From an uncultured Clostridia bacterium (GTDB taxonomy: Bacteria; Bacillota; Clostridia; UBA1381): a stretch of 34,174 nucleotides of DNA. Shown piece by piece: positions 14,664 through 20,837 of this stretch (position 1 is the stretch's first letter; each line of letters opens with the position of its first letter). The DNA is taken from the NCBI GenBank assembly GCA_904420525.1, contig CAJFVT010000017.1, forward strand, positions 1-34,174, given 5' to 3'. The notes under the pieces were generated by a model, which was given only the letters and a program-made list of their open reading frames with translations, did not search any database and was not told the origin of the DNA. The position numbers and the translations under genes are program-made.

Positions 14664-14743
14664 ATATTCGGTGTCTTTCTGTTGCACCGGAAAAATCGTA
14701 TTTTGGGCAGGCGCGTCTGCGCCGGTTATGGAAGGTGAGGATT

Positions 14744-15880
14744 TTGGCAGATAAACGAGATTATTACGAAGTGCTGGGCGTAAGCAAGGGCGCGTCCGCA
14801 GACGAGATAAAAAAGGCATTCCGTAAAATGAGCAAGAAGTATCATCCCGATCTGCATCCGGGCGATAAGGAGGCCGAGGAAAAATTCAAGGAAGTAAACG
14901 AAGCGTATCAGGTGCTTTCCGACGACGAGAAGCGCAGCCGTTACGATCAGTTCGGTCATGCCGGAGTTGACGGGAATGCGGGCTTCGGCGGCAGTGGTTT
15001 CGGCGGCGGCTTCGGCGGCTTTGATATGGGTGATATAGGCGATATATTCGGCGATCTGTTCGGCGGCGGCTTTGGCGGCGGCAGAGCAAGACGGAACGGA
15101 CCGCGACGCGGCTCGGATCTGAGCCAGTATATCAGCCTTACATTCGAGGAAGCGGCGTTCGGCTGCAAAAAGAAGATCAATATAACCAAAAACGAGACCT
15201 GCGGCGACTGCGGCGGAACGGGCGCAAAGCGCGGCACATCACCGGAGACCTGTCCGCAGTGTAACGGGACCGGTCAGATCCAGCAGCGCAGGCAGACGAT
15301 GTTCGGGTTCTCAAATGTTATATCGGAGTGCCCCAGATGTCACGGCAAGGGCAAGATCATAAAGGAGGCATGCTCCACATGCCGCGGTACCGGGCGCGTG
15401 AGAAAGAACAAGACTATTGAGGTGAACATACCCGCCGGAATAGACGATGAGCAGGTAATGCGCATACCGGGCGCGGGAAACGCGGGCGAGAACGGCGGAC
15501 AGAACGGAGATCTGCAGCTCGTTATCAGGGTAAAGCCGCATGATCTGTTTAGGCGCGACGGCTACGATGTGAATGTCGTGTTCCCGATAACGTTCGTGCA
15601 GGCGGCGCTGGGCGCTACGCTGAAGGTGCCGACGATACACGGCATAGTCGAGTATGACATCCCTGAGGGAACGCAGACCAACACGAGGTTCAGGCTGAAG
15701 GGAAAGGGTATCCCGATCCTTCACGGACGCGGCAACGGCGATGAGTACGTAACTGTAACGGTCGAGGTGCCGAAGAACCTGAGCTCGAAGCAGAAAGAGC
15801 TTCTGAAGGAATTTGACGAGGACAGGAACTATACAAAAAAGAAAAGCTTTATGGATAAAATGCGCGATGCATTCAAATGA
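14744..15880 (+). CDS. dnaJ: Chaperone DnaJ (Hsp40, type I)
   Basis: DnaJ delivers substrates to DnaK and stimulates its ATPase. The 378-residue product has the J domain (1-70, with the YHPD loop), a Gly/Phe-rich segment (about 75-115) and four CxxCxGxG-type zinc repeats ([32 protein letters not shown]). The C-terminal substrate-binding domains complete it. An in-frame GTG lies at 14735. I prefer TTG 14744, because it gives the family N-terminus [11 protein letters not shown] and is 6 nt from AAGGTG (14732-14737). Confidence 0.96.
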
Positions 15881-15936: not shown

Positions 15937-17235
15937 ATGAGACCAAACATTTATGAGCTTGACAAGATGACCAAGGAGCAGTATGACTTTATCATGAAGA
16001 GGGCTGAGCTTGACATCACCGAGCAGATGAAGGTGGCAAAGGAGGTCTCGGATGATATCCGTGACCGCGGCGATGAGGCTGTGCTTGAATACACGGCTAA
16101 ATTCGATCACGTAACGCTCACGGCCGATCAGATGAAGGTCACTGAGGAGGAGATCGAAGCCGGCTACGAGCGCCTCGATAAGGAAACCAGAGAGGCGATA
16201 GAGTACGCGTATAAGAATATATACGATTTCCATGAAAAGCAGCTCCCTGAGGAAATGTGGTTCACGATGGTGGATGACGGTCTCATGGTCGGAGAAAAGA
16301 CCACGCCCATAGTTGACGTGTGTCTGTACGTTCCGCACGGGAAGGGCTCGTTCCCGTCCGTGCTCTGTATGCTCGGCATACCGGCGGTAGTCGCAAAGGT
16401 GCCGAGGATAGTTGTCGTAACGCCCCCGAACGAGAAGGGCGAGGTGGACGATGCGATCCTTTGCGCGGCTAAGATAATAGGGATAAAGGAGATATACAAG
16501 GTCGGCGGCATACAGGCCGTTGCCGCCGTTGCTTACGGCACGGAAACGATCCCGAAATGCCACAAGATAATAGGACCGGGAAACAGCTATGCGACAGCGG
16601 CAAAGCGTGTGCTTGCTAACCATATCGATGCCGGTCTCCCGGCAGGACCGTCGGAGATAATAGTTCTTGCGGACGAGAAGGCGGATCCTGAGAAGGTAGC
16701 TCTCGACTGGATGATAGAGGCGGAGCACGGTCCGGACAGCGCGGCGCTGCTTGTCACACATTCGCGTGAGCTGGTAGAGGCGGCGATCCCGATAGTGAAC
16801 AGACAGCTTGAAAAGATATCGCAGAAGCGCAGAGAGTGGATCGAGACCAATCTCACGACCTACGGCGGAGTCATACTTACGAATTCGCTTGAAGAATCGA
16901 TAGATTTTGTTAACGACTACGCGCCTGAGCATATGGAGGTAATGACGGAAAAGCCGTTCGACACGCTCCCGAAGATAAAGAATGCGGGCGAGATACTGCT
17001 TGGCGATTACACGCCTGTAACGCTCTGCAATTTCGTGCTCGGCCCGAACGCTATCCTGCCTACAGGCGGATTTGCGAAAACATATTCATCGGTGTCGGTA
17101 ATGGATTTCCTCAAGCGCTCATCAGTCGGCTACGCGTCGAAGGAGGGCTTTGAGAACGTGCGTGAATACGCGTACAGATTTGCAAAGGTCGAGGGCTTTG
17201 ACACCCATGGCCTGGCGGTAAAGGAGCGTAAATAA
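15937..17235 (+). CDS. Histidinol dehydrogenase-like protein, divergent active site
   Basis: The 432-residue protein is collinear with HisD, the NAD- and zinc-dependent enzyme that oxidises histidinol to histidine. The NAD-domain segments VGGIQAVAAVAYGTE, IGPGNSYATAAKR and LPAGPSEIIVLAD are present. The catalytic pair E331-H332 (APEHMEV) and E419/H424 are kept. Compared with E. coli HisD, zinc ligand Q259 is replaced by E261, zinc ligand D360 by N365, and substrate-binding H367 by A372 (GPNAILPTGG). It is therefore probably a HisD-family dehydrogenase for another alcohol, possibly related to sulfopropanediol-type HisD homologues. An in-frame TTG lies at 15928, but ATG 15937 is well spaced from AAGGGA. 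It lies 56 bp after dnaJ with no clear promoter. Confidence 0.85.
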   Translation: MRPNIYELDKMTKEQYDFIMKRAELDITEQMKVAKEVSDDIRDRGDEAVLEYTAKFDHVTLTADQMKVTEEEIEAGYERLDKETREAIEYAYKNIYDFHEKQLPEEMWFTMVDDGLMVGEKTTPIVDVCLYVPHGKGSFPSVLCMLGIPAVVAKVPRIVVVTPPNEKGEVDDAILCAAKIIGIKEIYKVGGIQAVAAVAYGTETIPKCHKIIGPGNSYATAAKRVLANHIDAGLPAGPSEIIVLADEKADPEKVALDWMIEAEHGPDSAALLVTHSRELVEAAIPIVNRQLEKISQKRREWIETNLTTYGGVILTNSLEESIDFVNDYAPEHMEVMTEKPFDTLPKIKNAGEILLGDYTPVTLCNFVLGPNAILPTGGFAKTYSSVSVMDFLKRSSVGYASKEGFENVREYAYRFAKVEGFDTHGLAVKERK

Positions 17236-17244
17236 CAGATAGAA

Positions 17245-17277
17245 AAAATGCCGCGGCCGGAGGGCGCGCGGCATTTT
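17245..17277 (+). terminator. Intrinsic-terminator-like hairpin after the HisD-like gene
   Basis: An 11-bp perfect stem, AAAATGCCGCG / CGCGGCATTTT, closes an 11-nt loop starting 9 bp after the stop codon. The T-run is short (TTTT, then GCG), so efficiency may be moderate. No convincing promoter is seen between it and the HisB-like gene, which suggests partial readthrough. Confidence 0.7.
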
Positions 17278-17358
17278 GCGCATAAAAAAATACGATGGGT
17301 AATTGTGAAACGAGCGTTTTGCGGTCACCTATCCGAATATACAAAGAGGAGAGCCGAT

Positions 17359-17982
17359 ATGAAAAAAATCAAGGTCACGAGAAGAACGACTGAATCGGAA
17401 ATGACGGTGACGCTCGATCTCTCACCGTTAAAGCCGGATTACAGAAAAAGGATAACAACGCCCATACCGTTCCTGAACCATATGCTTGAGCATATAGCCT
17501 ACAGGGCGGGCTTTAATATAGAAACTGAGCTGAAGCTGGCCGATTATTCACTGACGCACGTCGTTGCGGAGGATCTGGGCATCGCGCTAGGCAAGGCGGT
17601 AAAGGAGTATATCGATGGCACCGACGGCACTTACGGCTACGGTGACGCGATAGGAATTATCGATGAGGCAAAGGCTGAATGTGCAGTAAGCTTCGAGTCC
17701 CGCGCGTATATAGATTGGGACTGGCACGGCATAGAGCTGCCGAAGGAGACGGAGGGGATGCTCAGCGAGGATCTTGAGACGTTCCTTGACGGCTTTGTCC
17801 AGGGCGCGATGTGCACGCTGCATATAGATCTTTTCAAGGGACACAACGGTCACCATATCTGGGAGGCGGTATACCGCTCGGTAGGCTCGGCGCTCGGCAG
17901 GGCTGTGACTGTTGACGAGTCGCGCAGGGGCAAGACCTCGGGCGTAGCCGGGAAGATAGAGTGGATAACGGAAACCGAATGA
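17359..17982 (+). CDS. Imidazoleglycerol-phosphate dehydratase-like protein, altered substrate site
   Basis: The 207-residue protein has the duplicated fold and metal-motif layout of HisB (IGPD), which dehydrates imidazole glycerol phosphate. Seven of eight manganese ligands align (H41 in NHML, H67, E71, H155, H165, H166, E169), but the second His of the first HHxxE motif is V68. The conserved G-x-R-[YF]-G arginine is lost (TYGYG). The C-terminal P-S-T-K-G phosphate motif is missing (TSGVAGK), and DHML reads NHML. A metal-dependent dehydratase or isomerase acting on a non-histidine substrate is the likely reading. The start ATG 17359 follows AGAGGAG. The stop overlaps the next gene (ATGA). 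Confidence 0.82.
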   Translation: MKKIKVTRRTTESEMTVTLDLSPLKPDYRKRITTPIPFLNHMLEHIAYRAGFNIETELKLADYSLTHVVAEDLGIALGKAVKEYIDGTDGTYGYGDAIGIIDEAKAECAVSFESRAYIDWDWHGIELPKETEGMLSEDLETFLDGFVQGAMCTLHIDLFKGHNGHHIWEAVYRSVGSALGRAVTVDESRRGKTSGVAGKIEWITETE

Positions 17983-18998
17983 GCATGAACAGACTTCTGG
18001 ATAAATACGACACCGTCATATTCGATATGGACGGTGTTATAACGAGCGAGCAGAACTACTGGAACAGCGCCGCGCTGACAGTCCGTGAGTATCTTTCAAG
18101 CGGCAGGTATTTCGGTAACGGGGATATCGACGCCGCGGCGATGAGCGCTGATGTGAGTTCGATACGCGGCGAGGTGTTTTCGGATGACAGGCTCATAGAC
18201 GAGCTGAAATCGCGCGGCGTGAATTCAAACTGGGATCTTGGCTATGTAACGGTGCTTATAGCGCTTATAACGAAAAGCGCGGATCCTGAGAAGATCCTGG
18301 ATCATGCAAGGACGCTGCCGGACAATATCCTTGATATGTACGGGAGCCTGGCGGAGTCAGCTGCGGCCGCGGCTGGGCTTGATCCGGCGGAGGCCGGGCG
18401 AAACGGCAGGCTATGGACGGATATGCGCGACTGCTTTCAGGAGTGGTTTTTGGGTGATGATGTGTTCAGGGAGCAGTACGGCAGGGAGCCGGCGCAGACC
18501 GGTAAGCCGGGGCTTCTGCACAGCGAGCAGCCTATAATACCTATGGACAGTCTAAAAAAGCTGCTCTGCTCTCTTGCGGAGACAAAGCGCGTTTGCACCG
18601 GCACAGGCAGACCGTATGCGGAGCTGATAACGCCGCTGCGGGCGTGGAATGTTGAAAAGTATTTTGCGGAAAACGGGCTTTGCAATTATGACCATGTTGC
18701 CAAAGCGGAGAAGCGGTTTGAGGGTATGACGCTGACAAAGCCGCATCCGTATATGTTCCTGAAGGCTCTTTACGGCACTGATAAGGATGACGCATGGATA
18801 CTTTTCGGCGAGCATGACCGCTCCGAGATAGAGCGCGCGCTCGTGGTCGGCGACGCGGGAGCGGATATACTTGCGGCAAAGGCTATGGGAGCAGATTTCT
18901 GCGCTGTGCTTACGGGTGTTGCAGGCACGGCCGCAAGAGGCTTTTTTGAGGAGCAGGGCGCGGAGTACATACTGGGCTCTGCCGCTGATCTGCTGTGA
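17979..18998 (+). CDS. HAD-superfamily hydrolase (probable phosphatase), large cap
   Basis: The 339-residue protein has all HAD core motifs. The nucleophile and acid are D16 and D18 in FDMDGVITS, motif II is T207 in CTGTGRP, the lysine is K254 in TLTKPHP, and motif III is GDAGAD at 291-296. A large helical cap of about 170 residues sits between motifs I and II, longer than in simple phosphoglycolate phosphatases. The ATG at 17979 overlaps the HisB-like stop. GTG 17961 is possible but lies inside that gene. The coupling suggests it acts on the same metabolite; E. coli HisB is itself a HAD-IGPD fusion. The substrate is unknown. Confidence 0.85.
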   Translation: MSMNRLLDKYDTVIFDMDGVITSEQNYWNSAALTVREYLSSGRYFGNGDIDAAAMSADVSSIRGEVFSDDRLIDELKSRGVNSNWDLGYVTVLIALITKSADPEKILDHARTLPDNILDMYGSLAESAAAAAGLDPAEAGRNGRLWTDMRDCFQEWFLGDDVFREQYGREPAQTGKPGLLHSEQPIIPMDSLKKLLCSLAETKRVCTGTGRPYAELITPLRAWNVEKYFAENGLCNYDHVAKAEKRFEGMTLTKPHPYMFLKALYGTDKDDAWILFGEHDRSEIERALVVGDAGADILAAKAMGADFCAVLTGVAGTAARGFFEEQGAEYILGSAADLL

Positions 18999-19059: not shown

Positions 19060-19611
19060 ATGGAGAAAAGAATAAAAGCGCCTATCGGCAAGGAAACGGC
19101 GCGCTCTCTCAGAGCGGGCGATAGTGTGCTAATCTCAGGCGTTATCTATACGGCCAGGGACGCCGCTCATGAACGTATGATCAGGCTGTTCCATGAGGGC
19201 GAGCCGTTCCCTATAGAGCTTAAGGATCAGGTGATATATTACGCCGGACCGTGTCCGGCGAAGCCGGGCGAGGTCATAGGCTCGTGCGGTCCTACTACCG
19301 CCGGGAGGATGGATGCGTACACGCCTGAGCTGCTTGATAACGGGCTTGGCGCGATGATAGGAAAGGGCGCGAGGAGCCCGGAGGTGGTCGAGGCGATGAA
19401 GCGGAACGGCTGCGTCTATTTCGGCGCAATCGGCGGCGCAGGTGCGCTTATAGCCGAGTGCATAAAAAAAGCCGAGATCATCGCATATGAGGATCTTGGC
19501 ACGGAGGCGATAAGGAGGCTGGAGGTCGAGGATCTCCCGGCCGTGGTGCTTATCGACTCTCAGGGCGGAGATCTGTACGAATCGGGACAGAAAGATTACA
19601 GAAAAATATAG
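19060..19611 (+). CDS. Fe-S hydro-lyase beta subunit, fumarase class I / tartrate dehydratase (TtdB-like)
   Basis: The 183-residue protein matches the C-terminal domain or beta subunit of class I fumarases and L-tartrate dehydratases. Features include AGDSVLISGVIYTARDAAHER, VIGSCGPTTAGRMD, GAMIGKGARS, YFGAIGGAGALIA and EDLGTEAIRRLEVEDLPAVV. This subunit supplies substrate-binding residues; the iron-sulfur cluster sits on the alpha subunit. No alpha gene is present anywhere in the window, which is unusual because the pair is normally adjacent. It may partner with a subunit encoded elsewhere or have a different role. The ATG at 19060 follows GGAG by 8 nt. Confidence 0.87.
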   Translation: MEKRIKAPIGKETARSLRAGDSVLISGVIYTARDAAHERMIRLFHEGEPFPIELKDQVIYYAGPCPAKPGEVIGSCGPTTAGRMDAYTPELLDNGLGAMIGKGARSPEVVEAMKRNGCVYFGAIGGAGALIAECIKKAEIIAYEDLGTEAIRRLEVEDLPAVVLIDSQGGDLYESGQKDYRKI

Positions 19612-19687: not shown

Positions 19688-19999
19688 ATGGAAGAAAAAC
19701 AGCGCACTGATACGGAAGACAATACCGGGAGCAGGACATATCAATACATAATACCGAGAATGGTCAGCGAGAAATACTCTGATATCGTCTGTTACGGAGT
19801 AAGACTGGAAAAGGTCACGGCTGAGCAGGGCAGAGGAAAAGCCGTGCTGTCCGCGCAGATAGACGATGTGTTTTTCCGGTATGAGGACGCATTGCTTTTT
19901 GTGGAATACGCGCGCAGGAACAGAACGGAGCCGTACCGGCTGCGGGAGGCTCTGGAGCGGTTCACGCGCGAGCATATCATGTGCGCGGCGGGCGCGTGA
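19688..19999 (+). CDS. Small conserved-looking protein of unknown function (DUF6514-like)
   Basis: The 103-residue soluble protein has a short polar N-terminus. A core follows with alternating beta strands (DIVCYGVRLEKV, AVLSAQIDDVFF) and two helices (YEDALLFVEYARRN, PYRLREALERFTREH). The layout resembles the small Firmicute family DUF6514; I offer this from memory of its pattern, with modest confidence. Starts at 19679 and 19682 are in frame, but AAGGG (19674-19678) best fits ATG 19688. It sits 76 bp after the TtdB-like gene and 55 bp before murI. No function can be assigned. Confidence 0.65.
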   Translation: MEEKQRTDTEDNTGSRTYQYIIPRMVSEKYSDIVCYGVRLEKVTAEQGRGKAVLSAQIDDVFFRYEDALLFVEYARRNRTEPYRLREALERFTREHIMCAAGA

Positions 20000-20054
20000 A
20001 GGCCTCCGCTATACTATACATATAAAAATAATAAGCGACGAAAGAAGAACGGTA

Positions 20055-20837
20055 ATGAAAATAGGAATATTTGATTCCGGTATAGGCGGTCTGTCCGTCC
20101 TGCACCGTGCCCGTAAAATGCTGCCCGGAGCGCAGTTTATATACTATGCGGATGAAAAACACGTGCCTTACGGTGAAAAGACGCCGGAGGAGATACGCGT
20201 GTTCATAGGCGAGATATTCGGTTTCATGATAGAGAGAAGGGCTGACGCTATCGTCATAGCCTGCAATACTGCCACGAGCGCCGTGACGCGGGAATACAGA
20301 AACAGCTTTTCCGTGCCGATAATAGGCATGGAGCCTGCGGTAAAGAAGGCTGTCGATCTTTACGGTGATGAGGACAGACGTATACTTGTCGCCGCTACGC
20401 CGATAACGATAAAGGGTCAGAAGCTCCATGAGCTTGTCGAGCGCGTGGACACACGCGGCATGGTCGATCTGATAGAGCTGCCCGCGCTCGTGCGCTTTGC
20501 CGAGAAAGGGATGTTTGAGTCCGGTGAGGCGGAGGAATATCTGAGGAGCGCGCTCAGCGGCTATGAGCTGAGCGATTACGGCACGATCGTTCTCGGCTGT
20601 ACGCATTTCAATTATTTCAAGAGATCGTTCCGGCGCATATTCGGCGAAGATATCAGGTTTACCGACGGCAATGAGGGTACGGTAAAGCAGGTGCAAAGGC
20701 TGCTGCCGGATCGTGAGGATACGAATGAAGCGGGCGGAACGGAGTTCTATTTTTCGGGCGAACGTGTAGGCGCTGAGCAGCGCAGGTTTATCGACCGCTG
20801 CCTGGCCCAGTTAGACAGCGTTTTCGATATCGAATAA
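20055..20837 (+). CDS. murI: Glutamate racemase
   Basis: MurI converts L- to D-glutamate for peptidoglycan. The 260-residue product has IGIFDSGIGGLSV at the N-terminus. The two catalytic cysteines are C70 (ACNTATSA) and C182 (GCTHFNYF), and IYYADEKHVPYG lies in between. The length is normal. The frame extends far upstream without meaning; ATG 20055 gives the family N-terminus, though its ribosome binding site (GAAAGAAG) is weak. The last Glu codon and the TAA stop lie inside the left copy of a 22-bp direct repeat that reappears after the toxin-antitoxin pair. Confidence 0.96.
   Translation: MKIGIFDSGIGGLSVLHRARKMLPGAQFIYYADEKHVPYGEKTPEEIRVFIGEIFGFMIERRADAIVIACNTATSAVTREYRNSFSVPIIGMEPAVKKAVDLYGDEDRRILVAATPITIKGQKLHELVERVDTRGMVDLIELPALVRFAEKGMFESGEAEEYLRSALSGYELSDYGTIVLGCTHFNYFKRSFRRIFGEDIRFTDGNEGTVKQVQRLLPDREDTNEAGGTEFYFSGERVGAEQRRFIDRCLAQLDSVFDIE

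Follow-up and report, generated by a model that had tools for sequence, protein, structure and literature searches.

Histidine biosynthesis is, to our knowledge, taught as one invariant route across all histidine-making organisms. We analyzed a contig of an uncultured Clostridia bacterium (assembly GCA_904420525.1, contig CAJFVT010000017.1; the whole stretch of 34,174 nucleotides is hereafter called the window), in which a HisD-like gene, a HisB-like gene and a gene for a HAD phosphatase lie together on the forward strand at positions 15937-18998. We refer to the altered forms of the two histidine enzymes as HisD2 and HisB2, and to the three genes as the trio. In a branch of Clostridia from gut and soil, the trio very probably acts in histidine biosynthesis, after imidazole glycerol phosphate (IGP). 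The observations that support this role are the presence of HisD2 and HisB2 as sole copies, their co-occurrence with hisZGAHFI, the mutual exclusion of the two kinds of HisB, the lower frequency of hisC and hisJ, one location within a his operon, and residue changes that are invariant.

The closest described systems come from histidine biosynthesis and from the families around it. Canonical HisB, the imidazoleglycerol-phosphate dehydratase (IGPD; Arabidopsis thaliana IGPD2, 4mu4; Staphylococcus aureus, 2ae8), has eight Mn ligands, four for each Mn (PMC4509728). Canonical HisD is the histidinol dehydrogenase (HDH; TIGR00069; 1k75 and 5vlb); in the plant enzyme the imidazole ring is hydrogen-bonded by the equivalent of E414, and the residue equivalent to H367 contacts the substrate through its carbonyl oxygen and not through its side chain (PMC5585171). 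A further member of the HisD family, the sulfopropanediol 3-dehydrogenase HpsN (8v35), has as its substrate a vicinal diol that carries no amino group and places an OH on the Zn (PMC11382572). The HAD protein resembles S. aureus Q8NW41 (1qyi), which has no assigned function and on which our literature search found no paper. With the histidinol phosphatases HisB-N of Escherichia coli and HisJ it would share the pathway, and with HisB-N also the HAD superfamily.

Profile searches of the genome that hosts the window (2.5 Mb assembly, 88% complete) returned one match to PF00815 and one to PF00475, both within the trio; a separate canonical hisD or hisB was sought in this genome and none was found. 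hisZ, hisG, hisA, hisH and hisF are all present above the NCBIfam cut-offs, arranged as PHP gene-hisZ-hisG-hisA on one contig (C139) and hisH-hisF on another (C104), and hisI is represented by fragments at the ends of two contigs (C151 and C106). The same pattern, histidine genes accompanied only by the altered HisB and HisD, is repeated in the relatives. HisB2 and HisD2 are the sole HisB and HisD in nearly every genome that carries them, with the exception of Candidatus Formimonas, which has an additional canonical HisB, and hisI occurs in 52 of the 55 HisB2 genomes. An earlier, sequence-only reading of the window had assigned the trio to a non-histidine pathway, a view to be given up if these were the only hisD and hisB of a genome encoding the rest of the histidine pathway. 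This is what the genome contains: the trio holds its only HisD and HisB, and hisZGAHF and hisI are encoded on other contigs.

The altered and the canonical HisB exclude each other. Among 61 close genomes, 42 carry HisB2 (E-values of 4e-72 or better), 10 carry a canonical HisB (approximately 1e-18 to 1e-24) and none carries both. The same holds for 216 Clostridia sampled evenly across the class, where HisB2 was detected in 38 genomes from 13 coded families and canonical HisB in 132, and no genome clearly has both; each genome gave one match, except G221 (one gene in two fragments) and G268 (whose second match is unlisted). Four families (f1, f17, f27 and f28) hold both kinds in separate genomes, which suggests that the kind of HisB was swapped repeatedly. 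In a tree of 47+8 rows, HisB2 forms a single clade with 100% SH-aLRT support on a long stem, for which the program issued a warning about long branches meeting. One genome (G053) has two copies of the trio (L046 and L045), which is unique among the close relatives, and gave no match to PRA-CH (hisI).

The hisB2 gene runs from the ATG at 17359, preceded by a ribosome binding site, to the stop at 17982; this start is conserved among relatives, while the upstream extension from 17248 that the block of the sequence-only reading includes is absent in them. The protein is a clear member of PF00475 (E = 1e-34), yet it lies below every NCBIfam HisB cut-off (best score 116.6 bits against 189) and shares approximately 27-37% identity with canonical HisB. 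Its AlphaFold model (mean pLDDT 92) has the IGPD monomer fold, with a TM-score of 0.84 to 4mu4. We compared 93 HisB2 sequences using the IGPD ligand assignments of PMC4509728. All 93 keep E21, H47, H73, E77, D108, R121, H169, H170 and E173, and hence six of the eight metal ligands together with the catalytic E21, D108 and R121. In all of them the first HHxxE motif has V, L, I or T in place of its second His, H74, which is a ligand of Mn1; position 145, a Mn2 ligand that is His or Glu in canonical enzymes and Glu in canonical clostridial HisB, is always T, V or A. Every HisB2 has lost one ligand of each Mn and departs from the eight-ligand set of IGPD. The textbook phosphate pocket is also changed in 90-92 of the 93 sequences (H55 to R, R99 to G, K177 to R, and [ST]K to VA in the C-loop), with R55 and R177 each present in 91. 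Because R99 and the C-loop Lys are lost and two new arginines are gained, the residues suggest that the pocket accommodates a carboxylate rather than a phosphate.

HisD2, encoded from the ATG at 15937 to the stop at 17235, is a full-length match to its family (PF00815, E = 5e-151, 503.7 bits; TIGR00069, 473 bits with a cut-off of 243.8) and its sequence resembles that of HDH (E = 5e-84) more than that of HpsN (4e-51). In an alignment of 84 HisD2 sequences, all retain H262, E326, H327, E414 and H419, which include the catalytic Glu326/His327 and the imidazole-binding Glu414, and all carry the changes Q259E, D360N and H367A. The Zn-ligand set reads Glu, His, Asn, His instead of the textbook Gln259, His262, Asp360, His419, and the motif GKGSF occupies the place of GSAPL in textbook HisD. 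HpsN differs as well, since it has Gln248, Asp352 and GRY[AS]H (PMC11382572) where HisD2 has Glu, Asn and GKGSF. Because E414 is kept and the contact made by H367 is a main-chain carbonyl, HisD2 looks fit to hold an imidazole ring within an altered Zn environment. We propose it as a candidate for the NAD-dependent four-electron oxidation of imidazole glycerol (or histidinol). The sequence-only reading had observed that both histidine-like proteins lack residues that their textbook substrates require, and rightly so: the changes concern H74, the His or Glu at 145 and most phosphate-binding residues in HisB2, and Q259E, D360N and H367A in HisD2.

The HAD gene starts at 17979, within an ATGA that gives the previously reported overlap of 4 nucleotides with the hisB2 stop, and ends at 18998. 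Its product is a candidate imidazoleglycerol-phosphate phosphatase. The DxDGV, T/S-GR, KPHP and GDxxAD-type motifs, which correspond to the HAD catalytic motifs, are invariant in 22 relatives. The three genes are present as first described. Its score of 22.5 bits against TIGR01656 is under the cut-off of 84.15, which sets it apart from the HAD-type histidinol phosphatases, and its proposed substrate, IGP, differs from that of both the HAD-type and PHP-type enzymes. The closest structure is that of Q8NW41 (1qyi), a large-cap HAD, with a full-length match (E = 5e-77), a TM-score of 0.86 for the model and the same large cap, at 28% identity. The HAD gene accompanies HisB2 in 27 of 30 genomes and is found in none of 9 genomes with canonical HisB (P-value = 1e-6, Fisher test; this P-value and those for hisC and hisJ below ignore the relatedness of genomes).

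The enzymes that usually accompany HisB are exchanged as well. hisC is above the cut-off in all 6 genomes with canonical HisB compared to 14 out of 34 HisB2 genomes (P-value = 0.02, Fisher test), and the hisJ family occurs in 8 out of 9 and 7 out of 34, respectively (P-value = 0.0003). hisC is absent from 20 of the 34 HisB2 genomes, several of which are 97-99% complete, and 16 HisB2 genomes have neither hisC nor hisJ. Since these near-constant companions of canonical HisB are often absent with HisB2, everything in the pathway after IGP appears to have been replaced as a set. In the complete genome of Petroclostridium X23, the only HisC-like protein above the cut-off adjoins aroF, tyrA and aroA, and because of this position it may be an aromatic aminotransferase. 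A 214-bit 'HisC' match in the genome of the window was rejected as HisC, as it sits in a cobalamin operon and is hence CobD-like.

The co-occurrence of the three genes, which the sequence-only reading had suggested surveying, proved to be that of a conserved unit. The order hisD2-hisB2-HAD and the altered residues are conserved in dozens of genomes, and the trio is therefore not a chance arrangement. It was found in Candidatus Ornithomonoglobus and its relatives (the order to which the window belongs), Petroclostridium, Dethiobacter, Syntrophomonadaceae and many further families. Almost every locus has hisD2 and hisB2 as a pair, and in bacterium UASB270 (L103 6615-8597), whose genome has a second HisD-family gene, they are fused into one HisD2-HisB2 protein of 661 amino acids. 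This pairing and fusion suggest that HisD2 and HisB2 catalyze consecutive steps. The textbook steps of HisB and HisD are not consecutive.

The trio is usually distant from the other histidine genes. As the sequence-only reading had stated for its surroundings, no further his gene was recognized inside the window besides hisD2 and hisB2. Clostridia AS01 (L101) has a single run hisZ-hisG-hisH-hisA-hisF-hisI-hisD2-hisB2, whose his genes were called by position, length and N-terminal sequence, and a PF01502 match at that position confirms hisI (G064:C184). A near-consensus HisR-like operator, CACTTTAATATGATAAATTA, lies immediately 5' of its hisZ (consensus from PMC9413887). Petroclostridium X23 has an operon hisZ-G-H-A-F-IE, called by sequence and order, without B, C and D. 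This genome encodes a single HisB, of type 2, and a single HisD, and the trio is found at another place, following a polar-amino-acid ABC transporter. HisR-like sites are present at hisZ in several his operons, and no convincing HisR operator was found upstream of approximately 50 hisD2 genes. A search for T-boxes and other Rfam RNAs upstream of the trio or of his genes gave none in the window or in eight loci.

The order of reactions that we favor is phosphatase, HisD2, HisB2 and aminotransferase. The HAD enzyme would dephosphorylate IGP to imidazole glycerol. HisD2 would then oxidize the terminal CH2OH with two NAD+, giving imidazole glycerate, with the vicinal OH binding the Zn in place of the NH2 of histidinol; this step has a precedent in HpsN, a HisD-family enzyme that makes a hydroxy acid from a vicinal diol (PMC11382572). 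HisB2 would remove the C3-OH beside the imidazole by an elimination of the IGPD type and form imidazole pyruvate, the two arginines holding the carboxylate of the substrate instead of a phosphate. A general aminotransferase, not HisC, would finally convert imidazole pyruvate to L-histidine; the frequent loss of HisC suggests that the transamination is done by another enzyme. This order is favored because it satisfies together the carboxylate pocket, the consecutive HisD2 and HisB2 steps and the loss of HisC. We infer each substrate, the succession of the reactions and the aminotransferase alike, and give this particular order slightly less than an even chance. With similar caution, and a shade more doubt, we suggest that the trio may be part of a second bacterial route from IGP to histidine, which would permute the four kinds of reaction of the textbook and bypass HisC, histidinol phosphate and histidinol. 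The sequence-only reading had envisaged that a polyol phosphate or similar compound is dehydrated, dephosphorylated and oxidized to an acid; its logic fits, and the compound that it left unnamed is most likely IGP itself.

Several observations weigh against this scheme. A HisC-type aminotransferase is retained in the 14 HisB2 genomes counted above, and the 7 with a HisJ-family protein include the genome of the window. No relative of the HAD protein was found in three HisB2 genomes, among them Clostridia AS01 with its his operon, where another phosphatase must therefore serve. At two loci (L097 and L185) hisD2 stands apart from hisB2 and the HAD gene. The arginines that replace His and Lys in HisB2 could still bind phosphate. 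The trio of the window has neither a HisR site nor a T-box, and our literature search found no assay or genetics of enzymes of the HisD2 or HisB2 type. Finally, in Candidatus Formimonas warabiya the HisD2-HisB2 pair lies in a cluster of catabolic appearance (L087 1-12739). Ahead of the pair come genes for a Zn alcohol dehydrogenase and a HisD-like protein (34%), then those for a ribose-type ABC transporter and one more HisB-like protein (29%, its second His also absent); glycolate-oxidase-like genes come after it. The canonical hisB of this genome is near hisI, and another HisB-like gene lies at 5.76 Mb. Because canonical HisB and a pair in such a cluster occur together here, the pair may serve elsewhere and its chemistry may not be limited to histidine.

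An alternative is that divergent enzymes perform the textbook reactions, with HisB2 as IGP dehydratase, a HisC-like or general aminotransferase next, the HAD protein as histidinol-phosphate phosphatase and HisD2 as histidinol dehydrogenase. We consider this unlikely, while recognizing that HisB2 and HisD2 are the sole HisB and HisD of genomes holding the rest of the pathway, that HisD2 is far above the TIGR00069 cut-off with E326, H327, E414, H419 and H262 in place, that six metal ligands and the catalytic residues of HisB2 persist, that HisC is there in the minority of HisB2 genomes, and that histidinol-phosphate phosphatases are known to be exchanged between families (PMC5516325). It leaves aside the alteration of one ligand per Mn and of most of the phosphate site in nearly all HisB2, the coordinated Q259E and D360N of all HisD2, and the absence of hisC from highly complete genomes, and the pairing or fusion would join steps that are not consecutive. 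An early dephosphorylation could also be followed by HisB2 first, leading from IGP through imidazole glycerol to imidazole acetol; either HisD2 would then make imidazole pyruvate, which is transaminated, or a transamination would give histidinol as the substrate of HisD2. Such an order would account for the altered phosphate site, the co-occurring HAD gene and, in its first form, the missing HisC; it is nevertheless improbable, as the near-invariant R55 and R177 would have no anion to bind, and its histidinol form requires an aminotransferase for imidazole acetol and leaves the pairing of HisD2 with HisB2 unexplained. That a polyol phosphate unrelated to histidine is the substrate of the trio, in bacteria that make no histidine or finish it with other enzymes, is very improbable, because, for all the Formimonas cluster and the remoteness of most trios from other his genes, dozens of genomes would retain hisZGIAHF without HisB or HisD, and it would be coincidence that the two kinds of HisB exclude each other and that the pair lies in a his operon in one genome.

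Around the trio, the window has hrcA-grpE-dnaK-dnaJ 5' of hisD2, with dnaJ, recognized by its open reading frame translation and position, at 14735..15880 (forward strand) as the upstream neighbor and as context only; the dnaJ-hisD2 adjacency is kept within the family of the window. The sequence-only reading had placed the trio between dnaJ and murI. Both flanking genes are there, the latter as an Asp/Glu racemase gene at 19866-20837, but a gene for a beta subunit of a FumA-C/TtdB type Fe-S hydro-lyase (19060..19611, forward strand; NF005310, 292 bits with a cut-off of 238) intervenes and had gone unmentioned. A class I fumarase/tartrate dehydratase beta subunit lies 3' of the HAD gene in most lineages (window 19060-19611; L084 12443-13045; L176 9420-9974), and no fumarase alpha subunit was seen adjoining it in the loci inspected. 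Between hisD2 and hisB2 there is a GC-rich inverted repeat, AAATGCCGCG...CGCGGCATTT (17246-17290), possibly a terminator or an attenuator. In several genomes of family f2, a divergent gene upstream of hisD2 encodes a protein of approximately 350 amino acids that matches no Pfam family (L045 10361-11407; L044 10433-11500; L049 8177-9202), and a DUF1858 protein of 81-87 amino acids is encoded 3' of the HAD gene (L045 6776-7018; L049 4520-4780).

The system was not described in the literature that we searched on an imidazole-pyruvate route, HisB-like paralogs, missing hisB or hisC, dephosphorylated intermediates and 1qyi. A reconstruction of amino-acid biosynthesis in the gut microbiome treats HisC and HisN as optional and gives no new displacement for histidine (PMC9026213). 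Genome annotations would be corrected too, as automatic pipelines likely label hisD2 and hisB2 as hisD and hisB. Both IGPD and HDH serve as targets for herbicides and antimicrobials, and organisms in which the sites are rebuilt would therefore probably respond differently. If true, the coordinated replacement of the lower half of the pathway in many clostridial families would represent a second solution for histidine synthesis.

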